Source of the DNA: Reinekea marina
GTDB taxonomy: Bacteria; Pseudomonadota; Gammaproteobacteria; Pseudomonadales; Natronospirillaceae
Reading direction: 5' to 3'
NCBI RefSeq assembly: GCF_030409715.1
Contig: NZ_JAUFQI010000001.1
Coordinates: 3,274,501-3,338,500, forward strand
DNA: 64,000 nucleotides
Below the pieces are notes generated by a model. That model saw nothing but the letters and a program-made list of their open reading frames with translations. It was not told the DNA's origin and searched no databases. Below are positions 661 to 14,010 of the stretch, one piece after another (within the stretch, counting starts at the first letter, position 1; the number at the start of each line of letters is the position of its first letter). The position numbers and the translations under genes were made by a program.

Positions 661-730
661 TAACGCAAAGCACTGCGGCGAACGACAGTGAGTCCAGTGC
701 CGTAGGCACGATGCAGCTGCGCCTTGTTAC
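661..730 (-). other. attC of cassette 2 (NC1-type site)
   Basis: Read on the minus strand, this 70-bp site shows the classical attC fold. TAAC pairs with GTTA, then GCAgCTGC pairs with GCAGTGC leaving one extrahelical G, and the loop contains GTGCCTACGGCAC. This is the reference site for all NC1 cassettes. Confidence 0.95.
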
Positions 731-1023
731 AAGTAGTGGCCTGTAGCTCATAACTATCACGTGCCAACGTGCTTAATTATTTATTGTTTTCCATCAAACT
801 CCGCCTTTGGTGCGGAAGTTTAGCTTGATGACCTTTATACTTGGTTGCCAGCTTAACTAGGCTGGCTAATCACTCTACCCTAGCTTGGGAGCGATGACTA
901 TTGCGTACAAGCTAGCCTGTTAAAGTTGTGACCCGTTGCTCTAAAAACCATAAATTTATACGAGCAAAACTATATTTTGGTGCAGGATTCATTCAATAGT
1001 TTTAAATGCCCTTCCACCTGTAA
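731..1023. ncRNA. NC1 structured noncoding cassette, copy 1 (cassette 2)
   Basis: No convincing gene is present. Five hairpins follow each other on the plus strand: CACGT/ACGTG (758-762, 767-771); CATCAAACT/AGCTTGATG (792-800, 822-830) capped by CCGC/GCGG; GCCAGC/GCTGGC (847-852, 861-866); CTAGCTTG/CAAGCTAG (880-887, 908-915); TTGCTC/GAGCAA (936-941, 962-967). The same chain recurs in ten more cassettes. Whether it works as RNA, and from which strand, is not settled. A minus-strand promoter-like sequence lies at 969-996. The body appears identical to that of cassette 27. Confidence 0.5.
969..996 (-). promoter_or_regulatory. Sigma-70-like promoter inside NC1 cassette
   Basis: On the minus strand TTGAAT (991-996) and TATAGT (969-974) are separated by 16 bp. 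It would drive transcription through the NC1 body into the next cassette to the left. The same pair is kept in cassettes 6, 9, 15 and 27. Cassette 13 has TTGAGT with the same spacing. Cassettes 12, 17 and 23 have altered boxes. Functional assignment is inference. Confidence 0.4.
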
Positions 1024-1074
1024 CGTCTACAGCTGTGGCGCCTGATTTTCGCGTCCACTGCCTGTTTTTGTTAT
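1021..1074 (-). other. attC of cassette 3, inside the coding region
   Basis: TAAC at 1021-1024 and GTTAT at 1070-1074 bound a short 54-bp site. The HAD hydrolase frame reads through almost the whole attC and stops at 1027-1029. Confidence 0.75.
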
Positions 1075-1722
1075 GGCTAGTACATCGTAAAATAGTCGAT
1101 CTATAGCCACCTGGTATTTCGCATTTGTTTTAATAGCTATTTTTGGTGATACCAATGCGGCATCCATACCCATTTTAGTCGCTCCTTCAACATCAGCAAT
1201 TTCAGAGTCTCCAATCATGAGCGATTCTTCGGGCCTAACACCCAATTCACCAAGAACAGCCTCAAAAGCATTACAAGACGGCTTCCTATAACCAATTGCG
1301 CACGACCAAACAACACTATCAAAGTACTTTGCCAACCCACGAGCTTCTAAATCATTTTGGAAGATTTCTTTAGGACCGGTAGCATTTGACAACAAGCCCA
1401 ACTTATATCCGTTTCTCTTTAACTCTATAAGCATTTTTTCTACGTTCGGAAAAGTTTCATTAGAACGACAAAACTCTTCTAAATGCCTACGACCAATATT
1501 CTCACTAAATGGAAGCCCTGTCCTCTCAAAGCAATGTGCCCAAATATCCGTCCACTCGGGCTGTTTTTTCTGGTCCGGCTTATATAGATTGCTAATTTCT
1601 TTTTCAATCTGTTTTCCTACAACAAAAGCTTTCTCGTCATCAACGACAGATTTAAGAGCATTCGCTAACGAACCTGATTTTGCTATAGTATTTCCAAAAT
1701 CAAATACTAATGCTTTATACAT
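1027..1722 (-). CDS. HAD-superfamily hydrolase
   Basis: A 231-residue HAD-type phosphatase or dehalogenase-like enzyme, cytosolic. Motif I is FDFGNT near residue 8, motif II is LLSNAT near residue 114, motif III is the Lys of GYRKPSCNAF and motif IV is MIGDSEIADVEGA. The second Asp of the common DxD motif I is Gly here, as in the DxGNT subgroup. The substrate cannot be told. The last 14 or so codons are made of attC sequence, so the native C-terminus is probably near VLAIT. It is the only gene of cassette 3 (1024-1734). Confidence 0.8.
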   Translation of the reverse strand: MYKALVFDFGNTIAKSGSLANALKSVVDDEKAFVVGKQIEKEISNLYKPDQKKQPEWTDIWAHCFERTGLPFSENIGRRHLEEFCRSNETFPNVEKMLIELKRNGYKLGLLSNATGPKEIFQNDLEARGLAKYFDSVVWSCAIGYRKPSCNAFEAVLGELGVRPEESLMIGDSEIADVEGATKMGMDAALVSPKIAIKTNAKYQVAIDRLFYDVLAITKTGSGRENQAPQL

Positions 1723-1800
1723 AATGGACCATAACGCAAAGCTAAGCGGCGCAGCTAGGCTGCGTCTGATCTTCCCCCGATAAAATGGACACCTCGGGAT

Positions 1801-2688
1801 TCACGCTGCCATTTGTTCATAATTAATTGGTGACATATACCCAATACCTGAGTGTAACCTCACCGTATTGTAAAATTTATTTATATACCTGCTAAGCTCA
1901 GATCGCAACTCTTCTATTCCTTTAAAATAGGTTTGCCGGATTAACTCACCTTTTAAGGAATGGTAAAACGATTCCATGAACGCATTGTCTGTACAATGTC
2001 CTGGTCGATTGACACTGTGATGCATACCATATTTTACCAATTCAGATTGAAAGACCGAGCCCGTAAATTCAACACCTCTATCGGTGTGAAAAATAACATT
2101 TTTTGGGTTTCGCCCTTTTTTAATGACATACCTTAAAGCGGTTGTCGTTAACTCCGTTGTTCTAGAATAGGATAATGACCAACCCAATATCCGGCGCGAG
2201 TATTGATCCATGATCGTTGCTAAATACGTCCACTTTCTTTGTAATTTAATATAGGTTACATCGGCGACCCAAACTTGATCCGGTGCCGTTGCAGCGTCGC
2301 GCGCTAATAATCGATTTTCACCTTTCGCTATGAAGCGTTTAAGTCCGGGCATTCGCCGCGTTACTTTGGTGACCCTGGCTTTGAGCCCTGCTTCACGCAT
2401 TAGCCGCTCGACACGCTTCTTAGCGATGCGGTAACCGCTCTGACGCAGGGATTCATAGACTCTAGGACTGCCATATCGTCCGTGACTGTCGTCAAATATC
2501 TTCGTGATCTGTTTTAACAATTGCTGATCGGACAATGCCCGATCTGTTGTCCCTCGCTGACGCCATGCATAGTAGCCGCTGGGCGATACCTGCATCCAAC
2601 GACAAAGGTTACGTACCCCTATTTCTTTTCCGTATCTGTGGATGAACCCAAATCGTTCTGATGTTGATCCGCCAGATACTGTTGCCAC
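1801..2688 (-). CDS. IS3-family transposase OrfB (catalytic part)
   Basis: This is the catalytic half of the transposase, 295 residues from a GTG at 2688. An HTH_21-like N-terminal region (GSPRVYESLRQSGYRIAKKR) is followed by an rve integrase core. The DDE residues are the Asp of VADVTY, the Asp of FHTDRG and the Glu of NAFMESF. It lies in the -1 frame relative to orfA. The active enzyme should be the OrfAB fusion made by slippage at 2688-2694. No internal stop or frameshift is seen, so the element could still be active. Confidence 0.93.
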   Translation of the reverse strand: MATVSGGSTSERFGFIHRYGKEIGVRNLCRWMQVSPSGYYAWRQRGTTDRALSDQQLLKQITKIFDDSHGRYGSPRVYESLRQSGYRIAKKRVERLMREAGLKARVTKVTRRMPGLKRFIAKGENRLLARDAATAPDQVWVADVTYIKLQRKWTYLATIMDQYSRRILGWSLSYSRTTELTTTALRYVIKKGRNPKNVIFHTDRGVEFTGSVFQSELVKYGMHHSVNRPGHCTDNAFMESFYHSLKGELIRQTYFKGIEELRSELSRYINKFYNTVRLHSGIGYMSPINYEQMAA

Positions 2689-2993
2689 TTTTTTAGAAGG
2701 TCATTTTCCCTCTTTAATCTATCGATTTCTTTTTTTAACTGAGCGTTCTCAGTTATTTGCTTCGCCGATTTCACTTTGCGTTTCTTTGACAAACCTACTC
2801 GCCTTTTTCCATCACCTTGAAGATGGCCTTCTCGATACTCTTTGCGCCAACGGGACAACATAAATGGATGAATACCCAAGCCTTCCGCAACCTGAGAACT
2901 TTTAATATCAGGTTGATAGCTCATTTTAACAGCTCGAACTTTAAACTCTGTTGAATACTGCCACGTTTTACGTGGATTATTATACTTTGGCAA
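2619..2993 (-). CDS. IS3-family OrfA (DNA-binding part)
   Basis: This 124-residue protein is the DNA-binding half of the IS3-type transposase. A helix-turn-helix (SSQVAEGLGIHPFMLSRWRK, residues about 32-51) is followed by a Lys-rich linker and a leucine-zipper-like coiled coil (KKEIDRLKRENDLLKK) that supports multimerisation. It overlaps orfB by 70 bp in a different frame. Expressed alone it commonly regulates the transposase in this family. Confidence 0.9.
   Translation of the reverse strand: MPKYNNPRKTWQYSTEFKVRAVKMSYQPDIKSSQVAEGLGIHPFMLSRWRKEYREGHLQGDGKRRVGLSKKRKVKSAKQITENAQLKKEIDRLKRENDLLKKWQQYLADQHQNDLGSSTDTEKK
2688..2694 (-). promoter_or_regulatory. Programmed -1 frameshift site (A6G) of the IS
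   Basis: The minus strand reads CTAAAAAAGTGG here. Slippage on A AAA AAG moves ribosomes from the orfA frame (LLKKWQQ) into the orfB frame (VATVSGG), which is the standard way IS3 elements make OrfAB. Confidence 0.75.
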
Positions 2994-3067
2994 AATTACC
3001 TCCAGATGCGTTATCTAGAGGTGTCCACTAAAACGGGGGAAGTTCAGCGTCCGGCTGCATGCGCTTG

Positions 3068-3541
3068 TTATGTGTTTACTCGCTTTATTAGTGGAAAATC
3101 AGTTGTAATACCATGTATTACCAAAGGCTCGCCATTTTTTATAAAGCCATTTCGCTCATAAAACATTTTAGCGGTTATTGAACTAGCGACACGTATATTC
3201 TCTACGCCGTTTTGTATAACTCGTTTTTCCAAAGCGGCTAACATTGCCTTGCCACTATTTTTGTAAAGAGCCTCAGGCAAAAGATAGTTTAATAGTATTT
3301 CACCTGACAAAGTTACTGCTGAAAAACCAACCACCTTATCATCTTCATCCACACAAACGACTTCATAAGTTTCTGGATTATTTATCCACAACTTTATATT
3401 TTCAGGTGTTTTGTTCTCTAGCCATTCTGCCACGAATTCCTCATTCGGATAGTCTTTTGCGCAGACTTCCTTAATCGATCGAATCAATACAGCACAAGCT
3501 TCATTCGCATCTTTCTCAACGGCTTCTCTAATTCTAAACAA
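3068..3541 (-). CDS. GNAT-family N-acetyltransferase
   Basis: A 157-residue GCN5-related acetyltransferase, presumably acting on a small molecule or protein amine with acetyl-CoA. The fold is visible as VVGFSAVTL (beta 4), a degenerate acetyl-CoA loop in NSGKAMLAALEKR and IRVASSITAKMFYERNGF (beta 5 to alpha 4). The start is a TTG at 3541 with a purine-rich AAAGGGA upstream on the minus strand. The stop lies in the right half of the IS-split attC. It is the only gene of cassette 4 (1735-3582 including the IS). Confidence 0.8.
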   Translation of the reverse strand: MFRIREAVEKDANEACAVLIRSIKEVCAKDYPNEEFVAEWLENKTPENIKLWINNPETYEVVCVDEDDKVVGFSAVTLSGEILLNYLLPEALYKNSGKAMLAALEKRVIQNGVENIRVASSITAKMFYERNGFIKNGEPLVIHGITTDFPLIKRVNT

Positions 3542-3579
3542 TCTGATTATCCCTTTGCTTTACGACTTACAGGTACACA

Positions 3580-3655
3580 TAACGTCCACCACACAGGCGA
3601 GCAACTTGTTGCGAGTCCAAGGCACGGAGTGCCTGATTGTGCTGGTTCTTGTTAC
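3580..3655 (-). other. attC of cassette 5
   Basis: TAAC at 3580-3583 and GTTAC at 3651-3655 bound a 76-bp site with internal GCAACTTGTTGC and GGCACGGAGTGCC hairpins. The same site follows each of the four 67-residue membrane-protein genes. Confidence 0.92.
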
Positions 3656-3676
3656 TAGTCTGGGTTGCCTTCATAT

Positions 3677-3880
3677 TTAACTTTGGAGCTCTATTTGTTT
3701 TGGTTTTAGCGGAGCTAATAGCATATAAAATACCCATGCGAACCAAGATACAAAGATCATAGCTAAAAGCCAAGCAAGTTTCTCTTTACCTGAAACCTTC
3801 TTCGAGAAAATGATACTGAGAAGTGGTATAAACCAAAAAATCAGCAAAAATTGACCTAAAAAAGTTAAGTTAATATTCAT
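3677..3880 (-). CDS. Small two-helix membrane protein, PLDc_N-like (copy 1)
   Basis: A 67-residue inner-membrane protein with two hydrophobic helices: FLGQFLLIFWFIPLLSIIF, then a basic loop KKVSGKEK, then LAWLLAMIFVSWFAWVFYML. The layout and the K..W....Y pattern resemble the PLDc_N (phospholipase D N-terminal) two-helix module found alone in many small proteins. AAGGAT lies 6 bp before the ATG. It is the gene of cassette 5 (3583-3910). Near-identical copies follow at 10515-10718, 12207-12410 and 12535-12738, so this is the most amplified coding cassette here. Confidence 0.8.
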   Translation of the reverse strand: MNINLTFLGQFLLIFWFIPLLSIIFSKKVSGKEKLAWLLAMIFVSWFAWVFYMLLAPLKPKQIELQS

Positions 3881-3907
3881 AGATTATCCTTATCTAATTA
3901 TTACTAG

Positions 3908-3977
3908 TAACGCAAAGCACTGCGGCGAGCGTGAGCGAGTCCAGTGCCGTAGGCACGATGCAGCTGCGCCTTGTTAC
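3908..3977 (-). other. attC of cassette 6 (NC1-type)
   Basis: It has the same fold as the site at 661-730, with the loop variant GAGCGTGAGCGAG in place of GAACGACAGTGAG. Confidence 0.95.
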
Positions 3978-4270
3978 AAGTAGTGGCTTGTGGCTCTTAA
4001 CTATCACGTGCCAACGTGCTTAATTATTTATTGTTTTCCATCAAGCTTCGCTTTTGGCGCGATATAATAGCTTGATGGCCTTCATACTTGGTTGCCAGCT
4101 TAACTAGGCTGGCTAATCACTTTACCCTAGCTTGGGAGCGATGACTATTGCGTACAAGCTAGCCTATTAAAATTGTGAACCGTTGCTCTAAAAACCATAA
4201 ATTTATACGAGCAAAACTATATTTCGGTGCAGGATTCATTCAATAGTTTTAAATGCCCTTCCACCTGTAA
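3978..4270. ncRNA. NC1 structured noncoding cassette, copy 2 (cassette 6)
   Basis: Its second hairpin is a perfect 10-bp stem, CCATCAAGCT (4038-4047) with AGCTTGATGG (4069-4078). At the fourth pair from the loop this copy has G-C where cassette 9 has A-T and cassette 15 has G-T, a compensatory series. The other four hairpins are as in cassette 2. Confidence 0.5.
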
Positions 4271-4319
4271 CGCCTTTAGCACGCGCGAGTTTACGAGTCG
4301 CCGTGCCTATAATTGTTAG
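4268..4319 (-). other. attC of cassette 7
   Basis: A short 52-bp site, TAAC at 4268-4271 and GTTAG at 4315-4319, with arms AGCACGCGCGAG and CCGTGCC. The acetyltransferase stop codon lies just right of it. Confidence 0.85.
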
Positions 4320-4321
4320 TA

Positions 4322-4771
4322 TTAGATTGCTTTAACATATAGCATAGTTGGCAGGCCGTCCCAAAGGTCTTTTGTCTGAAACAATCTCTTGAAGCCAAAA
4401 GCTTCGTAAAAAGCCCTTGTTTTCTTATAACCAGGGTGTGGTACTTCGTCTCCTAAAGTTTTTACATGAAGAAATTTATACTCTTTCTTTTTAGCTAGCT
4501 TTTCAGCTGCAACCATGAGTTTCTTGCCTATACCTTTGCGATGATTCTTTTGACTAATTGCCATTGAATAAATTTCAGCAGTAGTTTCGAAGTGCCAATC
4601 AATTGATATTACACCCTCCACTCTACCGTCAACTATTGCCACTAATGCACTATCTTCGCTTAGCTGGTTCGCATAGTCAGAATTTATTTCTTCACTCCCA
4701 AACCAACCATCAAGTTCATTAAAAATTTCATAACAACGTGCTTTATAGTCGACTTTATAAGGTTCGATCAT
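4322..4771 (-). CDS. GNAT-family N-acetyltransferase
   Basis: A GNAT acetyltransferase of 149 residues from the chosen start. The acetyl-CoA binding motif is clear in RKGIGKKLMVAAEKLAKK (R/Q-x-x-G-x-G/A pattern), with AEIYSMAI before it and RAFYEAFGFKRLF near the end. The ATG at 4771 (MIEPYK) is preferred because AAGG lies 6 bp upstream; longer readings from 4837 would be coded by the neighbouring attC. It is the gene of cassette 7 (4271-4791). The substrate is unknown. Confidence 0.83.
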   Translation of the reverse strand: MIEPYKVDYKARCYEIFNELDGWFGSEEINSDYANQLSEDSALVAIVDGRVEGVISIDWHFETTAEIYSMAISQKNHRKGIGKKLMVAAEKLAKKKEYKFLHVKTLGDEVPHPGYKKTRAFYEAFGFKRLFQTKDLWDGLPTMLYVKAI

Positions 4772-4788
4772 GCTCATCCTTAGAATAC

Positions 4789-4858
4789 TAACGTTGTACA
4801 CAGTGGCGAGCGTGAGCGAGTCCAGTGCCGTAGGCACGATACTGCTGTACTTTGTTAA
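4789..4858 (-). other. attC of cassette 8 (NC2-type)
   Basis: TAAC at 4789-4792 and GTTAA at 4854-4858, with GTACACAGTGGCG and CTGCTGTAC arms. The same site occurs at 7175-7244 and 10143-10212, always with an NC2 body. Confidence 0.92.
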
Positions 4859-5066
4859 TGTGCATTGACCACCACTGCCTTTATTTTTAGATTACAAAAG
4901 CATAAATACTATGACTTTTGCCACGAATTAGTGCCTTTAATATGCCAGTGGCGAAGCGTTTAGGCCACTAGAAATTTAAGCTATTCACGAGGAAACTGGC
5001 GCTAAATTAAAAGACAATTACTACATAGTGCCATTTAGTTTTACATATCCCTCGTCTGCACAATAA
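4859..5066. ncRNA. NC2 structured noncoding cassette, copy 1 (cassette 8)
   Basis: No gene is found in this 208-bp body. AGTGGC/GCCACT forms one hairpin. A larger one is closed by ACGAGG (4987-4992) with CCTCGT (5050-5055), and inside it TGGCGCTA (4997-5004) pairs with TAGTGCCA (5026-5033). Copies at 7245 and 10213 have TGGTGCTA instead; with the unchanged partner these pairings hold by G-T wobble only when the plus strand is read. This suggests, without proving, that the plus strand is the folded one. Confidence 0.45.
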
Positions 5067-5133
5067 CGCAAAGCACTGCGGCGAACGACAGTGAGTCCAG
5101 TGCCGTAGGCACGATGCAGCTGCGCCTTGTTAC
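5064..5133 (-). other. attC of cassette 9 (NC1-type)
   Basis: It is the same as the site at 661-730. Confidence 0.95.
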
Positions 5134-5426
5134 AAGTAGTGGCTTGTGGCTCTAAACTATCACGTGCCAACGTGCTGAATTATTTATTGTTTTCCATCAA
5201 ACTTCGCTTTTGACGCAGTAATTTAGTTTGATGGCCTTAAAACTTTCTTGCCAGCTTAACTAGGCTGGCTAATCACTCTACCCTAGCTTGGGAGCGATGA
5301 CTATTGCGTACAAGCTAGCCTGTTAAAGTTGTGAACCGTTGCTCTAAAAACCATAAATTTATACGAGCAAAACTATATTTTGGTGCAGGATTCATTCAAT
5401 AGTTTTAAATGCCCTTCCACCTGTAA
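5134..5426. ncRNA. NC1 structured noncoding cassette, copy 3 (cassette 9)
   Basis: It has a perfect 10-bp stem CCATCAAACT (5194-5203) with AGTTTGATGG (5225-5234). Compared with cassette 6, a G-C pair is replaced by A-T on both arms at once, the clearest compensatory change in the family. The cap TCGC/GCGA is weakened in this copy (TTCGC with ACGCA). Confidence 0.5.
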
Positions 5427-5514
5427 CGCAAAGTTTAGCGGCGAGCGTGAGCGAGTCCACAGCCCACCGCATAGCGGTGAATTTAAGGCTGCATTGCTAC
5501 AGCGTATTGTTAAC
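5424..5514 (-). other. attC of cassette 10
   Basis: A 91-bp site, TAAC at 5424-5427 and GTTAAC at 5509-5514. The central hairpin is CCACCGCATAGCGGTG. Confidence 0.88.
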
Positions 5515-5962
5515 TTATGGCTATCCCAGCTTTAATAAGGTATTGCTTTAGCTTATTAGCAAATTCTGCCATTTCATCTTTATTAAATTTTGGAGCATTT
5601 TCCCAATCATAAAACCAAGCCGGATATCTTCGTATTTCAGGCTCTTCAGACAAGTAGCGAGGGAAAATATGTGTATGTAAAGCTGGTTCGCTATTACCCA
5701 ATGTTTCGTAGTTGACACGATAACAACCGGTTAGTTCTAACAGTGCATCTCCAATCACTGTTGTCTCATAGAGATATTGCTTACGCTCTTCTTCAGTCAA
5801 GCTATTCAAAGACTCAACGACTGGATCTGCTAACAAAAGGCAATAACCTTTTAAAAACTGAACGTCTCCGATTACTACCCAGCCACTTTTAGTTTTGCAG
5901 ACTACTGTTTCATTTTTACCATTTCGTGCTGCTTCTACACGGTCATGTATGAGTGTTCCCAA
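5510..5962 (-). CDS. HIT-like (histidine triad) protein lacking the third His
   Basis: A 150-residue protein of the HIT fold, a family that usually hydrolyses nucleoside or dinucleotide phosphates. The late LHTHIFPRY aligns with the H-x-H-x-H-x-x triad, but the third His is Phe, so ordinary HIT hydrolase chemistry is doubtful. It is also reminiscent of galactose-1-phosphate uridylyltransferase-like variants. The start is a TTG at 5962 with AAGGA 9 bp upstream. An ATG-AAG-TAA mini-frame ends immediately before that TTG. The stop overlaps the attC. Gene of cassette 10 (5427-5983). Confidence 0.7.
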   Translation of the reverse strand: MGTLIHDRVEAARNGKNETVVCKTKSGWVVIGDVQFLKGYCLLLADPVVESLNSLTEEERKQYLYETTVIGDALLELTGCYRVNYETLGNSEPALHTHIFPRYLSEEPEIRRYPAWFYDWENAPKFNKDEMAEFANKLKQYLIKAGIAIS

Positions 5963-5980
5963 TTACTTCATTCCTTAAGT

Positions 5981-6048
5981 TAACGCCAAAAGTTGCGGCT
6001 GCGAAGCAGTCCAGCCACGAAATGGCGATGCAACCTTGCCTTGTTAAC
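5981..6048 (-). other. attC of cassette 11
   Basis: It is identical to the attC at 189-256. Confidence 0.9.
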
Positions 6049-6445: not shown

Positions 6446-6452
6446 AGGCAGT

Positions 6453-6522
6453 TAACGCAAAGCACTGCGGCGAACGACAGTGAGTCCAGTGCCGAAGGCA
6501 CGATGCAGCTGCGCCTTGTTAC
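6453..6522 (-). other. attC of cassette 12 (NC1-type)
   Basis: It is the same as the site at 661-730 with GCCGAAGGC in the loop hairpin instead of GCCGTAGGC. Confidence 0.95.
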
Positions 6523-6816
6523 AAGTAGTGGCTTGTGGCTCTTAACTATCACGTGCCAACGTGCTTAATTATTTATTGTTTTCCATCAAGCTTCGCTTTT
6601 GATGCGGTATTTAGGATTGATGGCCCTTAAATTTGATTGCCAGCCTAACGAGGCTGGCTTTTCACTCTACCCTAGCTTGGGAGCGATGACTATTGCGTAC
6701 AAGCTAGCCTTTGAAAGTTGTGAACCGTTGCAATTAAAACCACAAATTAATACGGGCAAAACTAATCTGTTGGTGCAGGATTCAATAATTAGCTATGAAT
6801 GCCCTTCCACCTGTAA
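6523..6816. ncRNA. NC1 structured noncoding cassette, copy 4 (cassette 12)
   Basis: A divergent subtype shared with cassette 23. The GCCAGC hairpin becomes 8 bp, GCCAGCCT/AGGCTGGC, with an AACG loop. The second stem is shortened to CCATCAA/TTGATGG. The right end (GATTCAATAATTAGC) differs from other copies and the promoter-like spacing is lost. A plus-strand frame is open through this copy, but it is closed by stops in nine of eleven copies, so I do not call a gene. Confidence 0.45.
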
Positions 6817-6883
6817 CGCAAAGCACTGCGGCGAACGACAGTGAGTCCAGTGCCGTAGGCACGATGCAGCTGCGCCTTGTTAC
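6814..6883 (-). other. attC of cassette 13 (NC1-type)
   Basis: It is the same as the site at 661-730. Cassettes 12 and 13 are tandem NC1 copies of different subtypes. Confidence 0.95.
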
Positions 6884-7177
6884 AAGTAGTGGCTTGTGGC
6901 TCTTAACTATCACGTGCCAGCGTGCTTAATTATTTATTGTTTTTTCACCAAGCTTCGCTTTTGACGCGGTATTTAAGCTTGATGTCCTTTAAAATTGGCT
7001 GCCAGCTTAACGAGGCTGGCTATTCACTTTACCCTAGCTTGGGAGCGATGACTATTGCGTAAAAGCTAGCCTGTTAAATTTGTGAACCGTTGCACCTAAA
7101 ACCACAAATTAATATGGGCAAAACTATATTTTGGTGCAAACTACACTCAATAGTCTTAAATACTTTTCCACCTGTAA
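6884..7177. ncRNA. NC1 structured noncoding cassette, copy 5 (cassette 13)
   Basis: The first hairpin is CACGT/GCGTG, a T-G pair on the plus strand but A-C on the minus strand. The second stem is CACCAAGCTT/AAGCTTGATG, with one mismatch. The right end has TTGAGT-16-TATAGT on the minus strand. Confidence 0.48.
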
Positions 7178-7244
7178 CGTTGTACACAGTGGCGAGCGTA
7201 TGCGAGTCCAGTGCCGTGGGCACGATACTGCTGTACCTTGTTAA
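7175..7244 (-). other. attC of cassette 14 (NC2-type)
   Basis: It is the same as the site at 4789-4858 with small loop changes (CGTATGCGAG, GCCGTGGGC). Confidence 0.92.
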
Positions 7245-7451
7245 TGTGCATTGACCACCATTGCCTTTATTTTTAGATTACAAAAGCCTAAATATTATGA
7301 CTTTTGCTACAAATTATTGCCTTAAATATGCCAGTGGAAAAACCTTTAAGCCACTGGAAATTTAATCTATTTACGAGGAAATGGTGCTAAATTAAATGAC
7401 AATTACTACATAGTGCCATTTAATATTAAATATCCCTCGTCTGCACAATAA
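7245..7451. ncRNA. NC2 structured noncoding cassette, copy 2 (cassette 14)
   Basis: The long hairpin is AAATGGTGCTA (7379-7389) with TAGTGCCATTT (7411-7421), 11 pairs on the plus strand including tandem T-G and G-T. On the minus strand those two become C-A and A-C mismatches. No gene is seen. Confidence 0.45.
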
Positions 7452-7518
7452 CGCAAAGCACTGCGGCGAAAGACAGTGAGTCCAGTGCCGTAGGCACGAT
7501 GCAGCTGCGCCTTGTTAC
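7449..7518 (-). other. attC of cassette 15 (NC1-type)
   Basis: It is the same as the site at 661-730 with GAAAGACAG in the loop. Confidence 0.95.
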
Positions 7519-7811
7519 AAGTAGTGGCCTGTGGCTCTTAACTATCACGTACCAACGTGCTTAATTATTTATTGTTTTCCATCAAGCTTCGCTTTTGACG
7601 CGGTATTTTAGTTTGATGGCCTTTAAACTTGCTTGCCAGCTTAACTAGGCTAGCTAATCACTTTACCCTAGCTTGGGAGCGATGACTATTGCGTACAAGC
7701 TAGCCTGTTAAAGTTGTGAACCGTTGCTCTAAAAACCATAAATTTATACGAGCAAAACTATATTTTGGTGCAGGATTCATTCAATAGTTTTAAATGCCCT
7801 TCCACCTGTAA
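7519..7811. ncRNA. NC1 structured noncoding cassette, copy 6 (cassette 15)
   Basis: The second stem is CCATCAAGCT (7579-7588) with AGTTTGATGG (7610-7619). This is the G-T intermediate between the G-C of cassette 6 and the A-T of cassette 9. The GCCAGC hairpin has partner GCTAGC, one mismatch on the plus strand. Confidence 0.5.
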
Positions 7812-7905
7812 CGCCCCTAAGCTACGGCGAAATCGCGCGAAGCGTGATTGAGTCCAAGGCCAGCCGCGGAGCGGTGTTTTGGCCTGAGTAGCCTTGGTTT
7901 GTTAG
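7809..7905 (-). other. attC of cassette 16
   Basis: A long site, TAAC at 7809-7812 and GTTAG at 7901-7905, with a nested stem GGCCAGCCGCGGAGCGGT and a CTACGGCG / GTAGCC arm pair. It is similar in layout to the attC at 12766-12865. Confidence 0.88.
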
Positions 7906-8891
7906 TTTTTCTTCGTGTAGTGCTTATCAAATTCTTTAAACACATTAGGATTAAAGAATGACTTACTTCCACTCTTTGCATTTGATGGGTTATAAAGTCG
8001 TTTACGGCAATATTTTTCATCAGTTTCTAAAGGTTTCCGAATTCTGTGATATTGGTTATTTACCTTAAAGTTTTCGTACCGAACTTTTAATCTAGTAGTC
8101 AATACATCGTAATCCCATGGATATTTATCCATGATTTCTTCTTCTGCGAGCCTCACAATCGGTGCTTTCGCATCATTTGATATTTGGATCGGTATACCTG
8201 ACCCGCTCTTAACTTTCTTGAAATTAACATCAATTCTTAATGACAGGTTATAGTCGGTTAGGTTTTCGCCGTCGTAGTTTTTTTCAACAGATTTAATATA
8301 TTTCAGAAGCTTCTTCTCTGAAGCATTAAGAGTTTCACCATTTACTGAATCGAACCCCCTAAAGAATGCCATTGGCATTAGATAGAAATTATATTTATCT
8401 AGTACTGGCCCGAACCATTCTTGTATCAAACGCAAGTAATTCTGTAGAGAGGCAGTCCCAATCTCCTGCACCTTAACCGCTAAAGACAGATCATCGTTAA
8501 TAAAGTGAATTGAGTTATCTCGCACCTCAGCAAGAGTAACTATATTATCCTTTACGGCTGCGCTTATCCTGACGCCATAGTCTTCGGTAACAATCCTATG
8601 AGCTTCATACAGGCTAACGGACATTGGATTCCCAGCTCGATTAGATTTAATAAATCTCTTTTTGGATTTTCCGCCGTTTTTTAACTGTCTATGCTCCCAA
8701 ACGTACAAGCTGTTCACTTGATTGCCTGAGAGTTGTAAAACTTTGGCTTTCAATAAAAGCTCCCAAGCATTAATACATAGTACAGAGAAAGTTTCCTCCC
8801 GGTAGTTGAAGTCTGGTTTATTATAAATTTCTATTGCAGATATCATTGCTGCAATAGATTTGTCTAGCATGGCTCTGGTTCTAGACTTCAT
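7902..8891 (-). CDS. DUF3644-like protein with HEPN-type R-x4-H motif
   Basis: A 329-residue soluble protein. The N-terminal half (FSVLCINAWELLLKAKVL, then LAEVRDNSIHF) matches the pattern of the DUF3644 family. RDNSIH fits the R-x4-H motif of HEPN domains, many of which are RNases in toxin or defence systems; this part is inference. The C-terminal third is basic and ends FDKHYTKKN. AAGGAG lies 7 bp before the ATG, an unusually good site for this array. It is the sole gene of cassette 16 (7812-8910); no antitoxin-like partner is seen in the same cassette. Confidence 0.72.
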   Translation of the reverse strand: MKSRTRAMLDKSIAAMISAIEIYNKPDFNYREETFSVLCINAWELLLKAKVLQLSGNQVNSLYVWEHRQLKNGGKSKKRFIKSNRAGNPMSVSLYEAHRIVTEDYGVRISAAVKDNIVTLAEVRDNSIHFINDDLSLAVKVQEIGTASLQNYLRLIQEWFGPVLDKYNFYLMPMAFFRGFDSVNGETLNASEKKLLKYIKSVEKNYDGENLTDYNLSLRIDVNFKKVKSGSGIPIQISNDAKAPIVRLAEEEIMDKYPWDYDVLTTRLKVRYENFKVNNQYHRIRKPLETDEKYCRKRLYNPSNAKSGSKSFFNPNVFKEFDKHYTKKN

Positions 8892-8907
8892 CCAAACTCC
8901 TTAAAAC

Positions 8908-8977
8908 TAACGCAAAGCACTGCGGCGAACGACAGTGAGTCCAGTGCCGTAGGCACGATGCAGCTGCGCCTTGTTAC
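8908..8977 (-). other. attC of cassette 17 (NC1-type)
   Basis: It is the same as the site at 661-730. Confidence 0.95.
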
Positions 8978-9270
8978 AAGTAGTGGCCTGTGGCTCTTAA
9001 CTATCACGTGCCAACGTGCTTAATTAATTATTGTTTTTTACCAAGCTTCGCTTTTGAAGCGGTATTTAAGCTTGTTGTCCTTTAAATTTGGCTGCCAGCT
9101 TAACGAGGCTGGCTATTCACTTTACCCTAGCTTGGGAGCGATGACTATTGCGTACAAGCTAGCCTGTTAAATTTGTGAACCGTTGCTCCTAAAACCACAA
9201 ATTTATACGAGCAAAACTTAGTTTTGGTGCGGGCTAAGTTAAGTAGTATTAGATGCCCTTCCACCTGTAA
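8978..9270. ncRNA. NC1 structured noncoding cassette, copy 7 (cassette 17)
   Basis: The second stem is reduced to CAAGCTT/AAGCTTG. The TTGCTC/GAGCAA and CTAGCTTG/CAAGCTAG stems are intact. The promoter-like pair is degenerate (TTAACT and CTAAGT on the minus strand). Confidence 0.45.
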
Positions 9271-9337
9271 CGCAAAGCACTGCGGCGAGCGTGAGCGAGT
9301 CCAGTGCCGTAGGCACGATGCAGCTGCGCCTTGTTAC
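9268..9337 (-). other. attC of cassette 18 (NC1-type)
   Basis: It has the same loop variant as the site at 3908-3977 (GAGCGTGAGCGAG). Confidence 0.95.
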
Positions 9338-9630
9338 AAGTAGTGGCTTGTGGCTCTTAACTATCACGTGCCAATGTGCTTAATTATTTATTGTTTTCCA
9401 TCAAGCTCCGCCTTTGGTGCGGAAGTTTAGCTTGATGACCATTAAACTTGCTTGCCAGCTCAACTAGGCTGGCTAATCACTCTACCCTAGCTTGGGAGCG
9501 ATGGCTATTGCGTACAAGCTAGCCTGTTAAAGTTGTGAGCCGTTGCACTCAAAACCACAAATTAATACGGGCAATACTATTTTTTGGTACATATTAAATT
9601 CAATAGTTTCAAATGGTTTTCCACCTGTAA
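9338..9630. ncRNA. NC1 structured noncoding cassette, copy 8 (cassette 18)
   Basis: The second stem is perfect over 9 bp (CATCAAGCT/AGCTTGATG) with the CCGC/GCGG cap. The first hairpin is CACGT/ATGTG, kept by a G-T pair only on the plus strand. The fourth hairpin has a single loop change (GATGGCTA for GATGACTA). Confidence 0.5.
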
Positions 9631-9701
9631 CGCCGCCATAAAAGGCGAGCAACTTGTTGCGAGTCCAGCGCTGAAAGCGCGATTTTTAATGGCCTTGTTA
9701 G
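9628..9701 (-). other. attC of cassette 19
   Basis: TAAC at 9628-9631 and GTTAG at 9697-9701, with GCAACTTGTTGC and GCGCTGAAAGCGC hairpins. Confidence 0.9.
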
Positions 9702-9706
9702 CTTTT

Positions 9707-10123
9707 TCATTCGATAGTGAATTCAAAAATGAACGGCTTGCCAGCTATACATGAATTTGAAGAGCTTAGTGCCGGCAATTGGCCTAAATTTAAAATTGTT
9801 TGCACTAACAGTGAATCTTCATCCGTATTGGCGGCCAACTGATAACCAGTGATAACTGCTCTTTTATCAACTACGAGAGCCAACTTATATTGGCCTATGT
9901 GCTCATGCGTTAACAATCCCGCGTTTCCAAATTCAGTTGAAAAGAATACTGGAAGTTTTGAAAGAAGGTAGTATTTTCCAGCAGCATTTGCACAATCAAA
10001 TCCTTCCTGACTTGTAGCATTAACTGAAGTGTTTATCGCGCCTGTATGTTGATAAGTCACTTCACTTTCTGCCTTCACAAAGCCAGCAAGCAGAAATAAT
10101 AAAGATAATAGTGGAAATCTCAA
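9707..10123 (-). CDS. Secreted or periplasmic protein, possible TonB-C-like fold
   Basis: A 138-residue exported protein with a signal peptide (MRFPLLSLLFLLAGFVKA, cleavage likely after AKA/ESE). The mature part has two Cys (DCANAAG and SNSCIAG) that could form a disulfide. The tail (LVVDKRAVITGYQL ... LGQLPAL ... KPFIFEFTIE) has the spacing of a small TonB C-terminal-like domain; this is only suggestive. The start is a TTG at 10123 with AGGGAG 7 bp upstream and an ATG-TAA pair lying between. Gene of cassette 19 (9631-10145). Confidence 0.7.
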   Translation of the reverse strand: MRFPLLSLLFLLAGFVKAESEVTYQHTGAINTSVNATSQEGFDCANAAGKYYLLSKLPVFFSTEFGNAGLLTHEHIGQYKLALVVDKRAVITGYQLAANTDEDSLLVQTILNLGQLPALSSSNSCIAGKPFIFEFTIE

Positions 10124-10142
10124 ATTACATCTCCCTGACAGC

Positions 10143-10212
10143 TAACGTTGTACACAGTGGCGAGCATATGCGAGTCCAGTGCCGTAGGCACGATACTGCT
10201 GTACCTTGTTAA
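10143..10212 (-). other. attC of cassette 20 (NC2-type)
   Basis: It is the same as the site at 4789-4858. Confidence 0.92.
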
Positions 10213-10420
10213 TGTGCATTGACCACCACTGCCTTTAATTTTAGATTACAAAAGCCTAAATACTATGACTTTTGCCACGAATTAGTGCCTTTAATATGCC
10301 AGTGGCGCAGCGTTTAGGCCACTAGAAATTTAAGCTATTCACGAGGAAAATGGTGCTAAATTAAAAGACAATTACTACATAGTGCCATTTAATATTAAAT
10401 ATCCCTCGTCTGCACAATAA
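10213..10420. ncRNA. NC2 structured noncoding cassette, copy 3 (cassette 20)
   Basis: The long hairpin is AAATGGTGCTA (10348-10358) with TAGTGCCATTT (10380-10390), outside which ACGAGG pairs with CCTCGT. The wobble pattern is as in cassette 14. No gene is seen. Confidence 0.45.
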
Positions 10421-10493
10421 CGCCCACCACACAGGCGAGCAACTTGTTGCGAGTCCAAGGCACGGAGTGCCTGATTGTGCTGGTTCTTGTTAC
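10418..10493 (-). other. attC of cassette 21
   Basis: It is the same as the site at 3580-3655. Confidence 0.92.
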
Positions 10494-10514
10494 TAGTCTG
10501 GGTTGCCTTCATAT

Positions 10515-10718
10515 TTAACTTTGGAGCTCTATTTGTTTTGGTTTTAGCGGAGCTAATAGCATATAAAATACCCATGCGAACCAAGATACAAAGATCATAG
10601 CTAAAAGCCAAGCAAGTTTCTCTTTACCTGAAACCTTCTTCGAGAAAATGATACTGAGAAGTGGTATAAACCAAATAATCAGCAAAAATTGACCTAAAAA
10701 AGTTAAGTTAATATTCAT
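10515..10718 (-). CDS. Small two-helix membrane protein, PLDc_N-like (copy 2)
   Basis: It is the same 67-residue protein as at 3677-3880 except one Phe-to-Ile change in the first helix (FLLIIWF). Gene of cassette 21 (10421-10748). The single substitution in a hydrophobic position suggests the copies are recent and still under mild constraint, or simply young. Confidence 0.8.
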   Translation of the reverse strand: MNINLTFLGQFLLIIWFIPLLSIIFSKKVSGKEKLAWLLAMIFVSWFAWVFYMLLAPLKPKQIELQS

Positions 10719-10745
10719 AGATTATCCTTATCTAATTATTACTAG

Positions 10746-10854
10746 TAACGCCAAGCTCACCTGCGATTTTTGCGGAGAGCAATTGTGTAAAGTGGAGCTA
10801 CGCGACATACACAATTGAGCGTAGCAAAAATTGTCAGGTGCAGCTTTTTGTTAT
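10746..10854 (-). other. attC of cassette 22
   Basis: The longest attC of the array, about 109 bp, TAAC at 10746-10749 and GTTAT at 10850-10854. Long paired arms are visible (CACCTG with CAGGTG, CAATTGTGT with ACACAATTG, ATTTTTGC with GCAAAAAT). Confidence 0.9.
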
Positions 10855-11726
10855 GCATGCCCGAACTCATAATTTACAAGCGATTGATAAACCAGCTTAA
10901 GTAAGTGCTCTCTTTGCTCATAAATCGCTTCAATCTGTTTTGTACTCCAATTGTCGAGTAACTCGAGGTATGCCCCATGAGCAATAAGATTTCTTAAGTG
11001 CGAGTAAGTTTTTGCGCCTAAAACATCATTTTGACTATCAATTTTTCTTACAGCTAATTGGACCTTAAGATCTTTCTTTTTCGAGCCAGGATAAAGACTT
11101 TTCGTGATCATATTTAAAAAGCTCTCAGACAGGTCGGATTCACCATCTCGAGTATTCCAGAACCCCTCGATAAATGCCCATAAACTTAATACTTCAAGAA
11201 ATACATCGTTAATAAGGGATATTTTATAAATTTGCTCAATACTTGGAAAATACCGTTTCTCTAGAGATAGCAGCGACAGTATGTATTTTTCAAAAATATC
11301 GGAGGATTCAGAATCTATCACTACCTTAGACGCTAAGAAAGATTCTGGTATATTAGGCCAGTTTGGCAATATTATAGCTGCTTTTTCTGTGTATTCACCA
11401 ACGCCAGATATATATGTGGGAGTCGGCAGCGACATTCTTAATGCCAAATGAATAGCAGAAAATAGTTTCTGCGTGTTGTGTGTAGCACATGGATTTGGTG
11501 TTACCACATATAAGCAGTCAAAAGGATTAGGTTGCCTAGCACCTATCCAACCACCTGGTTTTACTAGTTTATGTTCAATCCAATCAGCATAAACCTCGTT
11601 TATTTTTATTGCTCTTTCGTAATCAGTAATGAGTAAGCTTACCTTTTCGCCTTCAAAATCAATGTCAATCGTGATTTCCGACTTTAGCGATTCGAAATTG
11701 AATATCATCCATAATCCATATCTCAT
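10851..11726 (-). CDS. Hypothetical protein with HEPN-type R-x4-H motif
   Basis: A 291-residue soluble protein. The C-terminal third carries SHLRNLIAHGAYL, which fits the R-N-x3-H motif of HEPN domains; several HEPN proteins with this layout are RNases of abortive-infection systems. The N-terminal two thirds are not recognised (ADWIEHKL, GEYTEKAAIILPNWPN). The start may be ATG at 11726 or the later ATG giving MIFNFES; neither has a strong Shine-Dalgarno sequence. The stop overlaps the attC. Gene of cassette 22 (10749-11751). The role in phage defence is inference from the motif only. Confidence 0.65.
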   Translation of the reverse strand: MRYGLWMIFNFESLKSEITIDIDFEGEKVSLLITDYERAIKINEVYADWIEHKLVKPGGWIGARQPNPFDCLYVVTPNPCATHNTQKLFSAIHLALRMSLPTPTYISGVGEYTEKAAIILPNWPNIPESFLASKVVIDSESSDIFEKYILSLLSLEKRYFPSIEQIYKISLINDVFLEVLSLWAFIEGFWNTRDGESDLSESFLNMITKSLYPGSKKKDLKVQLAVRKIDSQNDVLGAKTYSHLRNLIAHGAYLELLDNWSTKQIEAIYEQREHLLKLVYQSLVNYEFGHA

Positions 11727-11748
11727 TGGCTAAACTCACTTAAATGCA

Positions 11749-11818
11749 TAACGCAAAGCACTGCGGCGAACGACAGTGAGTCCAGTGCCTTAGGCACGAT
11801 GCAGCTGCGCCTTGTTAC
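11749..11818 (-). other. attC of cassette 23 (NC1-type)
   Basis: It is the same as the site at 661-730 with GTGCCTTAGGCAC in the loop. Confidence 0.95.
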
Positions 11819-12112
11819 AAGTAGTGGCTTGTGGCTCTTAACTGTCACGTGCCAACGTGCTTAATTATTAATTGTTTTCCATCAAGCTTCGCCTTTGGCG
11901 CAGTACTTTACCTTGATGGCCTTTAAACTTGATTGCCAGCTTAACGAGGCTGGCTATTCACTTTACCCTAGCTTGGGAGCGATGACTATTGCGTACATGC
12001 TAGCCTTTGAAAGTTGTGAACCGTTGCAATTAAAACCACAAACTAATACGGGCAAAACTAATCTGTTGGTGCAGGATTCAATAATTAGCTTTGAATGCCC
12101 TTCCACCTGTAA
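11819..12112. ncRNA. NC1 structured noncoding cassette, copy 9 (cassette 23)
   Basis: It belongs to the same subtype as cassette 12. The second stem is CCATCAAG/CTTGATGG. One arm change in the fourth hairpin (CATGCTAG) breaks a pair. A plus-strand frame stays open here as in cassette 12, but almost all differences between the two copies change the amino acid, which does not look like coding constraint. Confidence 0.45.
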
Positions 12113-12185
12113 CGCCCACCACACAGGCGAGCAACTTGTTGCGAGTCCAAGGCACGGAGTGCCTGATTGTGCTGGTTCTTGTTAC
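12110..12185 (-). other. attC of cassette 24
   Basis: It is the same as the site at 3580-3655. Confidence 0.92.
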
Positions 12186-12206
12186 TAGTCTGGGTTGCCT
12201 TCATAT

Positions 12207-12410
12207 TTAACTTTGGAGCTCTATTTGTTTTGGTTTTAGCGGAGCTAATAGCATATAAAATACCCATGCGAACCAAGATACAAAGATCATAGCTAAAAGC
12301 CAAGCAAGTTTCTCTTTACCTGAAACCTTCTTCGAGAAAATGATACTGAGAAGTGGTATAAACCAAAAAATCAGCAAAAATTGACCTAAAAAAGTTAAGT
12401 TAATATTCAT
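12207..12410 (-). CDS. Small two-helix membrane protein, PLDc_N-like (copy 3)
   Basis: It has the same amino-acid sequence as the copy at 3677-3880. Cassette 24 (12113-12440) is the left member of a tandem pair with cassette 25. Confidence 0.8.
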   Translation of the reverse strand: MNINLTFLGQFLLIFWFIPLLSIIFSKKVSGKEKLAWLLAMIFVSWFAWVFYMLLAPLKPKQIELQS

Positions 12411-12437
12411 AGATTATCCTTATCTAATTATTACTAG

Positions 12438-12513
12438 TAACGCCCACCACACAGGCGAGCAACTTGTTGCGAGTCCAAGGCACGGAGTGCCTGATTGTGC
12501 TGGTTTTTGTTAC
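12438..12513 (-). other. attC of cassette 25
   Basis: It is the same as the site at 3580-3655 with one C-to-T change near the right end (GGTTTTTGTTAC). Confidence 0.92.
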
Positions 12514-12534
12514 TAGTCTGGGTTGCCTTCATAT

Positions 12535-12738
12535 TTAACTTTGGAGCTCTATTTGTTTTGGTTTTAGCGGAGCTAATAGCATATAAAATACCCATGCGAA
12601 CCAAGATACAAAGATCATAGCTAAAAGCCAAGCAAGTTTCTCTTTACCTGAAACCTTCTTCGAGAAAATGATACTGAGAAGTGGTATAAACCAAAAAATC
12701 AGCAAAAATTGACCTAAAAAAGTTAAGTTAATATTCAT
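12535..12738 (-). CDS. Small two-helix membrane protein, PLDc_N-like (copy 4)
   Basis: It has the same amino-acid sequence as the copy at 3677-3880. Cassette 25 (12441-12768) is 328 bp, as are the other three copies. The tandem arrangement with cassette 24 suggests local re-insertion or unequal exchange. Confidence 0.8.
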   Translation of the reverse strand: MNINLTFLGQFLLIFWFIPLLSIIFSKKVSGKEKLAWLLAMIFVSWFAWVFYMLLAPLKPKQIELQS

Positions 12739-12765
12739 AGATTATCCTTATCTAATTATTACTAG

Positions 12766-12865
12766 TAACGTTCCTAAACTACGGCGAAAACGCGCGTAGC
12801 GTGTTTGAGTCCAAGCCCCATTTGCGTAGCAAACGTTTTGGGGCTGAGTAGCTTTGGTTTGTTAT
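12766..12865 (-). other. attC of cassette 26
   Basis: A 100-bp site, TAAC at 12766-12769 and GTTAT at 12861-12865, with a CCCCATTTGCGTAGCAAACG stem region and CTACGGCG arm like the site at 7809-7905. Confidence 0.88.
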
Positions 12866-13269
12866 AGGGCTTCACCGTTTGCCACAGACCAATGATGGGG
12901 CATTAGCTCACGAATTGTTTTGAATATCAATTTATTATCTTTTGTACTGATAGCAGCCTTTACATCACCACCCCAAAAAACAAGACGCTCTTGGCAAATA
13001 CCACATGGGGATAAGATTATAACTTCACTATCTTCATCTTTTCTGCAAATACATAGTGAATGGGTAATCGCCTCGTCTAACTTAAAAGCTTCAAGATAAG
13101 CTCCCAGCTCAATACAAACATTTAAACTATCGTTCTTCGTATCTGGCGGAACACTAGTAAGTATTTTTCCTGACTCAGTTCGAACTGCGGCAGCATAACC
13201 ATCACCCTTAGGGTATCTATGCTTTAATAGATTTAAGGCTGAGTCATATAATTTTTGTTCGATGTTCAT
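12862..13269 (-). CDS. Cytidine/blasticidin-S deaminase-like protein
   Basis: A 135-residue member of the cytidine-deaminase superfamily, cytosolic, expected to hydrolytically deaminate a pyrimidine nucleoside or analogue. The zinc site is visible as NVCIELGA (Cys ligand with catalytic Glu two residues on) and SPCGICQERL (C-x-x-C). The length matches small tetrameric cytidine deaminases. GAGAG lies upstream of the ATG. The stop overlaps the attC. Gene of cassette 26 (12769-13290). Whether it acts in salvage or nucleoside-antibiotic resistance cannot be told. Confidence 0.8.
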   Translation of the reverse strand: MNIEQKLYDSALNLLKHRYPKGDGYAAAVRTESGKILTSVPPDTKNDSLNVCIELGAYLEAFKLDEAITHSLCICRKDEDSEVIILSPCGICQERLVFWGGDVKAAISTKDNKLIFKTIRELMPHHWSVANGEAL

Positions 13270-13287
13270 TGATATCTCTCGTAGCTA

Positions 13288-13357
13288 TAACGCAAAGCAC
13301 TGCGGCGAACGACAGTGAGTCCAGTGCCGTAGGCACGATGCAGCTGCGCCTTGTTAC
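13288..13357 (-). other. attC of cassette 27 (NC1-type)
   Basis: It is the same as the site at 661-730. Confidence 0.95.
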
Positions 13358-13650
13358 AAGTAGTGGCCTGTAGCTCATAACTATCACGTGCCAACGTGCT
13401 TAATTATTTATTGTTTTCCATCAAACTCCGCCTTTGGTGCGGAAGTTTAGCTTGATGACCTTTATACTTGGTTGCCAGCTTAACTAGGCTGGCTAATCAC
13501 TCTACCCTAGCTTGGGAGCGATGACTATTGCGTACAAGCTAGCCTGTTAAAGTTGTGACCCGTTGCTCTAAAAACCATAAATTTATACGAGCAAAACTAT
13601 ATTTTGGTGCAGGATTCATTCAATAGTTTTAAATGCCCTTCCACCTGTAA
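13358..13650. ncRNA. NC1 structured noncoding cassette, copy 10 (cassette 27)
   Basis: It appears identical to cassette 2 (731-1023) over the full body, although 12 kb apart. The promoter-like pair lies at 13596-13623 on the minus strand. Confidence 0.5.
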
Positions 13651-13717
13651 CGCAAAGCACTGCGGCGAACGACAGTGAGTCCAGTGCCGTAGGCACGATG
13701 CAGCTGCGCCTTGTTAC
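13648..13717 (-). other. attC of cassette 28 (NC1-type)
   Basis: It is the same as the site at 661-730. This is the rightmost recognisable attC of the array. Confidence 0.95.
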
Positions 13718-14010
13718 AAGTAGTGGCTTGTGGCTCTTAACTATCACGTGCCAACGTGCTTAATTATTTATTGTTTTCCACCAAGCTTCGCTTTTGGCGC
13801 GGTATTATAGCTTGATGGCCTTTAAATTTAGCTGCCAGCTTAACGAGGCTGGCTATTCACTCTACCCTAGCTTGGGAGCGATGACTATTGCGTACAAGCT
13901 AGCCTGTTAAATTTGTGAACCGTTGCACCTAAAACCACAAATTAATATGGGCAAAACTATATTATGGTGCAGACTACACTCAATAGTCTTAAATACTTTT
14001 CAACCTGTAA
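13718..14010. ncRNA. NC1 structured noncoding cassette, copy 11 (cassette 28)
   Basis: The second stem is CCACCAAGCT/AGCTTGATGG, one pair kept as wobble only on the minus strand. It ends the array at TAA/C (14010/14011). The right end carries GTGCAGACTACACTCAAT, close to cassette 13. Confidence 0.48.

Follow-up and report, generated by a model that had tools for sequence, protein, structure and literature searches.

What is the unit of about 360 bp that recurs in a 64,000-nt stretch of the Reinekea marina genome, and what does its repetition say about the integron arrays that hold it? The stretch (hereafter the window; C1:3274501-3338500 of a 3.51-Mb contig) includes an array of attC-bounded cassettes, A3, in which a unit without a gene of its own, NC1, occurs eleven times. 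A preliminary description made from the letters of the window had read NC1 as a structured RNA, or a folded single-stranded DNA element, spread as an integron cassette. We find NC1 to be a gene-less integron cassette and not a new class of RNA, which makes it a known kind of cassette in a new host; more unusual are the several attI-Pc platforms (recombination site plus cassette promoter) that appear to share a single integrase.

NC1 is a gene-less cassette shared by three arrays

Structurally, NC1 consists of a 69-nt attC followed by a body of about 292 nt, and no gene-sized conserved frame emerges when its copies are compared. All eleven cassettes placed in the window by the preliminary description were recovered, each body beginning 70 nt past the attC start that opens its line below, and the near-fixed length reported there holds, although the aligned range is 360-362 bp and not 360-361 bp. 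As in an integron cassette, the attC stem is folded and conserved, the boundaries are exact, and tandem copies are spaced at 360-362 bp. A second gene-less cassette, NC2 (273-278 bp, at least 12 copies by length), carries an attC related to that of NC1 (80-83% over 59 bases). Within the window these units are as follows (HP1-HP5 are the body hairpins; the second-stem pair is discussed in the next section):

661-1021, minus strand: NC1 copy (attC 661-729 plus body), identical to the copy at 13288-13648 and to one A1 copy
3908-4268, minus strand: NC1 copy
4789-5063, minus strand: NC2, gene-less, with the related 69-nt attC
5064-5424, minus strand: NC1 copy, A-T at the second-stem pair
6453-6814, minus strand: NC1 copy, G-A (broken) at the second-stem pair
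6814-7175, minus strand: NC1 copy
7175-7448, minus strand: NC2 copy
7449-7809, minus strand: NC1 copy, G-T at the second-stem pair
8908-9268, minus strand: NC1 reference copy, with HP1 9005-9018, HP2 9039-9077, HP3 9094-9113, HP4 9127-9162 and HP5 9184-9213
9268-9628, minus strand: NC1 copy, in tandem
10143-10417, minus strand: NC2 copy
11749-12110, minus strand: NC1 copy, broken at the pair next to the second-stem pair
13288-13648, minus strand: NC1 copy, identical to the copy at 661
13648-14008, minus strand: NC1 copy, first cassette of the array, adjoining attI

Genome-wide, NC1 is present in 41 copies: seven in array A1 (2.17-2.19 Mb), 20 in A2 (2.61-2.64 Mb), 12 in A3 (3.27-3.29 Mb, the twelfth lying just left of the window), and two singles, one intact at 2.42 Mb (S1) and one decayed at 0.54 Mb (S2; 74% over 328 bases). 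The three arrays together hold about 120 cassette-like units, roughly one-third of the cassettes being NC1; attC positions were taken from a simple pattern rather than from IntegronFinder, and these totals are thus approximate. With 41 attC-bounded copies and no gene-sized shared frame, the earlier proposal of an amplified noncoding integron cassette is well founded. Among the genomes searched, NC1 is found only in one species: a DNA search recovered it from 2 of 7 genomes of the genus and 2 of 22 of the family, and a covariance model with strict filters from 2 of 390 genomes of the order and 1 of 369 of the class, the model having been built from 16 of the 42 copies aligned below and scoring seven candidates per genome, so that diverged relatives may be missed. 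No match was found among the plasmids searched, nor in viral contigs, for which one exact pattern was used. Besides its NC1 copies, the second strain, G003, has a weak and very decayed NC1-like match (L161, at G003 C2:1980-2118; 42.5 bits) with an attC-like remnant nearby, as judged by eye.

Clear covariation lies in attC, and NC1 copies are mosaics

The alignment comprised 42 copies, namely 39 of the 41 in this genome and three from G003; an A2 copy spanning the edge of two fetched stretches (C1:2627865), the decayed S2 and the relic L161 were left out, and three duplicate rows were collapsed for counts, leaving 39 distinct rows. In attC, 99.2% of cells are paired, and both-sided changes fall at 6 of 17 pairs (25 cells), compared with an average of 3.4 both-sided cells in 500 shuffles and 0-1 with slid partners. 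The clear covariation of NC1 is located here, as expected for an integron cassette. The five body hairpins have both-sided changes at 2 of 37 pairs (four cells); shuffles average 0.8 such cells and none of 500 reaches four, and the same hairpins slid by -1 give three pairs and four both-sided cells, no fewer than the true partners. RNAalifold, run on the 42 copies, assigns -2.02 of -52.02 kcal/mol to covariation. As the stems of HP1, HP3 and HP4 hold only 8, 7 and 20 changes, respectively, the power of this comparison is low, and at that power the body hairpins show no clear covariation.

The preliminary description had rested its case for selection on folding on one pair of the second stem, found as G-C, G-T, A-T or A-C with the rest of the stem kept. 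In the eleven window copies this pair (alignment columns 139-165) is G-C six times, A-C twice, and A-T, G-T and G-A once each; the preliminary description had overlooked the broken G-A copy (6453), and in the copy at 11749 it is the adjacent pair that is broken. Across the 39 rows the counts are 30 GC, 5 AC, 2 AT, 1 GT and 1 GA. Its covariation score, 2.6, is unremarkable, about 4% of all column pairs scoring higher, and under tree-based simulation even pairs scoring about 22 have an expect value (E) of about 35; the pair is far from those below E 0.1, which are 330-354, 330-355, 199-210 and 298-304. Evolutionarily, NC1 copies are freely recombined mosaics, with 2575 of 3741 pairs of variable sites failing the four-gamete test and linkage (r2) decaying from 0.16 to 0.06 within about 80 nt. 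The series of pairs thus arises because two two-state sites assort freely among recombining copies, and NC1 is a case in which assortment among recombining repeats can mimic compensatory base changes. Selection on RNA folding cannot be drawn from such changes here, given body both-sided changes no more numerous than in the slid control and strand signals that conflict.

Three platforms and one integrase

The NC1 copies form one pool across the three arrays, which lie 0.4-1.1 Mb apart. Two copies in A3 and one in A1 are identical, as are another two in A1 and A2, and copies of one array are no more similar to each other than to those of another (494 of 500 permutations equalled or exceeded the difference observed). 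Gene cassettes are shared as well, one with a 142-amino-acid open reading frame (ORF) being 100% identical in A1 and A2, and one with a 66-amino-acid ORF 99.7% identical in A1 and A3. Each array has one attI-like block with zero mismatches to the common pattern, and these are the three pattern matches in the genome (that of A2 at C1:2636772-2636813). The predicted promoter Pc (TTGACA-17-CATTAT) is likewise present in A1, A2 and A3 with a constant junction: in all 7 platforms (three here and four in G003) TAAC occupies an identical position. The platform in the window comprises:

14014-14055, minus strand: attI-like block, zero mismatches to the pattern common to A1 and A2
14095-14123, minus strand: Pc promoter (predicted), -35 TTGACA at 14118-14123, 17-nt spacer, -10 CATTAT at 14095-14100
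14162-14174, no strand assigned: block CCTGTATATACCG beside Pc, in all three platforms here and in altered form in the four G003 platforms

One integrase in the genome scores above the family cut-off; it lies beside A1, its gene preceded by CTGTATATGCATACAG, which looks like a LexA box. No IntI remnant was found in the 4 kb beside A2 or A3. The window array, having at least two attC and no nearby intI, falls within the definition of a CALIN (cluster of attC sites lacking an integrase); it possesses an attI-like block and Pc, and in the absence of intI it is not a complete integron.

The G003 genome likewise encodes one integrase above the cut-off and has four attI-plus-Pc platforms by a looser pattern, three of them at orthologous places; its attI search used a 16-base pattern with up to four changes, which also gave stray matches away from any Pc, and platforms were counted as attI matches with the Pc pattern 80-81 bases further on. 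Flanking sequence of A1, A2 and A3 aligns with G003 contigs C1, C18 and C4 at 94, 92 and 90%, respectively, and for A1 and A2 the match continues through attI and Pc; the A2 platforms of the two strains, with their attI and Pc, are orthologous, and neither has intI. For A3 the match begins only about 570 bp further out, and it is the fourth G003 platform, on contig C12, that its platform block matches (76% over 181 bases), suggesting that platform blocks may also be exchanged. Beside the G003 A2 platform, only 5 of 17 units match the arrays of the present genome over more than 60% of their length (three of the five gene-less by length), as do 12 of 47 G003 units overall, eight of these 12 being NC1 or NC2 by length; two further G003 NC1 copies, fused to a neighbour in crude unit calling, were scored as partial.

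On the simplest reading of this cassette sharing, the platforms probably all depend on a single integrase acting in trans. We posit that the single IntI beside A1 would excise cassettes from all three arrays and re-insert them at each attI, and that NC1 would be a resident cassette multiplied mainly by IntI copying plus gene conversion, because it is cheap to carry and brings a working attC. More tentatively, the conserved palindromes of its body may act in cis, most plausibly on the transcription of the cassettes behind NC1, since promoter activity has been measured in gene-less Vibrio cassettes. Taken as a whole, this explanation (a gene-less resident cassette, with one IntI serving three platforms in trans) seems to us reasonably probable.

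NC1 was also considered as the founder of the arrays and set aside: it occupies the first position in A3, A2 and at S1, but NC2 is first in A1, and with about one-third of cassettes being NC1 such positions are not telling. As to replication, dnaA lies at 354 kb and the switch to negative GC skew falls at 2.09-2.13 Mb (20 sampled stretches, those at 1.2 and 2.7 Mb being exceptions, near zero and of the wrong sign), from which we infer that the attC bottom strand is on the leading-strand template at all five NC1 loci.

Constraint on the NC1 body and its possible roles

The body hairpins are unevenly kept. Paired cells amount to 100% in HP1, 97.0% in HP3, and 97.1% (outer) and 99.0% (inner) in HP4, with 92.3% in HP2 and 81.0% in HP5, in which 26 of 39 rows lack pairing at 281-304 and the other four pairs are kept in 34-39. 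The chain of five hairpins described earlier thus stands for HP1, HP3 and HP4, whereas HP2 is frayed and HP5 has a pair broken in most copies. Mean folding z scores against shuffles for the two strands are -2.0 and -2.3 in NC1 (20 copies drawn from 29), as compared with -2.1 and -1.7 for NC2 (n=12) and -0.4 and -0.75 for gene chunks (25 drawn from 51). The HP1, HP3 and HP4 stems together have changed 0.73 times per site, whereas blocks of identical shape placed elsewhere in the body give 1.71 (fraction 0.007); the corresponding values are 0.77 for attC, 1.35 for all body stems and 1.91 for the non-stem body. This constraint is real, may reflect sequence as well as folding, and is the part that endures of the earlier argument for selection on folding rather than on protein, the compensatory support having gone. 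Strand preference is split, with HP1 and HP4 pairing better on the plus (bottom) strand (100% versus 95.4% on the other for HP1, 97.8 versus 90.7% for HP4) and HP2 and HP3 slightly better on the minus strand. Separately, attC AGCAC (columns 9-13) can pair with body GTGCT (columns 109-113), a pairing that competes with HP1 (mean probability 0.45).

Functionally, NC1 could instead be primarily a promoter cassette, selected for expressing cassettes far from Pc, a possibility that we find worth entertaining but doubtful. Sense-strand promoter activity occurs in most of 29 gene-less Vibrio cassettes (PMC11014356). The best sigma-70 score on the NC1 sense strand is 8.8 versus 7.8 in shuffles (7.8 versus 8.2 on the plus strand), and in 19 of 42 copies the top-scoring site, among the eight commonest listed, is TTGAAT or TTGAGT-16-TATAGT at column 340. 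The mean z is only 0.76, however, many copies have other best sites, and a consensus scan of two copies (8900-9640) gave no promoter-like site with 0.8 expected; such scans settle little, because PMC11014356 itself states that promoters of gene-less cassettes cannot be found in silico. The structured RNA of the preliminary description, taken as acting in trans, strikes us as improbable. It would fit the folding z scores of about -2, the conserved HP1, HP3 and HP4 stems and the precedent of ORF-less cassettes that can encode small RNAs (sRNA-Xcc1, cited in PMC6557892), but not the both-sided changes, which do not exceed the slid control, the lack of a consistent strand, or the plus-strand promoter score below that of shuffles. 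Rfam returned no match at gathering score over the whole window, and at relaxed E over 8900-9640 only four matches, far below gathering score and at chance level (E 4 or worse). The earlier statement that no named family fits is therefore right as regards Rfam, although a known kind does exist in the highly paralogous non-coding cassettes of PMC1382264.

Nor do we think it likely, to a degree just short of that for the RNA, that the bottom (plus) strand of the body, folded as single-stranded DNA, aids recombination of its own attC. The better pairing of HP1 and HP4 on that strand, the one used by IntI, would suit such a role, as would DNA ensembles of all 42 aligned copies, which keep HP2, HP3 and HP4 (mean probability 0.66-0.76), but HP2 and HP3 favour the opposite strand, and a place on the leading-strand template, such as the bottom strand has at all five loci, is considered to restrict folding (PMC11023631). 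Moreover, the attC stem has a probability of 0.15 with the native body versus 0.30 with a shuffled one, the native body giving the higher value in 2 of the 14 copies tested out of 42; the test is weak, as the assumed attC fold is not the minimum-energy one even alone. An insulating effect of the body on the attC fold was rejected on finding the opposite, a native body that lowers attC stem probability. Equally unlikely in our view is a more elaborate distributed integron, in which one trans-acting integrase would serve three or four attI-Pc platforms separated by as much as 1.1 Mb, with NC1 and NC2 as dedicated carriers whose bottom strands, folded beyond attC, would aid recombination or cohesion of the pool. 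To a small protein we give almost no credence: a 17-codon sense frame starting with ATG, GTG or TTG is open in 42 of 42 copies (a length that holds in most of them), but its changes are mostly non-synonymous, no ribosome site is apparent by eye, and among the eight best-shared stops per strand no longer frame is common to most copies, frames of 38-70 codons sharing a stop in only 10 of 42. A few copies have ORFs of 58-70 amino acids, above the 150-bp limit of PMC1382264, and three longer ones (81-101 amino acids) running out of NC1 have no Pfam match; with no gene-sized shared frame either, a protein-coding NC1 was rejected. A terminator role was also discarded, the 8900-9640 interval containing four hairpin-plus-T matches versus 1.2 in shuffles, with weak tails; one is HP3, one lies in HP2 and two lie in attC on the other strand.

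Several observations weigh against the resident-cassette account or parts of it. The numerous NC1 copies could themselves support homologous recombination that carries cassettes from one array to another. The G003 genome is a draft, in which some repeats may have been merged and cassettes at the ends of contigs are absent. NC1 is known from two genomes of one species, and the constraint on its body consequently rests on few independent lineages. The most frequent sense-strand promoter match lies in one of the fastest-changing regions, at about 2.2-2.5 changes per site, which is ill-suited to a conserved promoter. On the side of a structured RNA, the body covariation score of 0.039 exceeds the six slid controls (at most 0.031) and every one of 500 shuffles (0.036 on average), although related sequences can beat shuffles without structure. 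Lastly, pair 330-354 (G-C in 27 rows, A-T in 12) reaches E 0.03 and closes a possible terminal stem; of the body signals it alone deserves another look, under a null that assumes a tree though NC1 copies recombine and whose top pairs are mostly close-set columns, some of them not complementary.

Neighbouring cassettes

Other cassettes and genes accompany NC1. A transposase-like ORF pair at 1801-2993 of the window, presumably IS3-like by eye, is repeated within cassette arrays in A1 and A2 and beside S1. A 328-bp cassette encoding a 67-amino-acid membrane-like protein is present at 3677-3880, 10515-10718, 12207-12410 and 12535-12738 of the window and at C1:3272546; the five copies are 99.4-100% identical, all lie in A3, and none has a PADLOC match. 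The cassette gene at 7902-8891 matches the candidate phage-defence family PDC-S19 (E 3e-145), and the decayed single NC1 (L121, at about 541 kb on C1) adjoins an AbiL-like pair (AbiLi, E 8e-102; AbiLii, E 9e-32).

Comparison with known systems

With no gene-sized frame common to most copies, 41 copies and a distribution limited to kin, NC1 resembles the highly paralogous non-coding cassettes of Vibrio, of which 45 and 34 copies were reported from two V. vulnificus strains (PMC1382264; BMC Evol Biol 2006). Both lack an ORF of note, number in the tens, have relatives in nearby hosts only and may be homogenised by gene conversion, and for the Vibrio cassettes that paper offers a selfish element, a promoter or an RNA as alternatives. 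NC1 differs in its host and in being spread over three arrays, and the likeness is drawn at the level of description. As a gene-less integron cassette it is also akin to the gene-less promoter cassettes of Vibrio (PMC11014356; NAR 2024) and the ORF-less cassettes of Treponema (PMC6557892); for the promoter cassettes activity has been measured and high copy number is not defining, whereas NC1 has weak sequence matches only.

The literature searched, mostly not subscription papers, gave no account of Reinekea integrons, the genus being named only in abbreviation lists, and no described case of several integrase-less attI-Pc platforms with one integrase. An integron of the V. cholerae type has one platform with its own integrase, unlike the three platforms and one integrase seen here or the four platforms of G003. 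In its large array and in the attC bottom strand lying on the leading-strand template, the present system is like such sedentary chromosomal integrons (PMC11023631). The window array is also like a CALIN, with many attC and no integrase nearby, and CALINs have been proposed to be degraded integrons (IntegronFinder 2.0; PMC9024848, which describes attI as poorly characterized outside class 1). Integrase-less arrays are usually read in this way; here, however, two such arrays retain Pc and an attI-like block, both intact, lie at orthologous places in two strains, hold cassettes identical to those of the integrase-bearing array, and differ in cassette content between strains. If one integrase does serve several platforms, some CALINs would be working satellites, each platform offering a Pc-driven first slot, and NC1, abundant and mosaic, could serve as a natural tracer of the cassette traffic among them.

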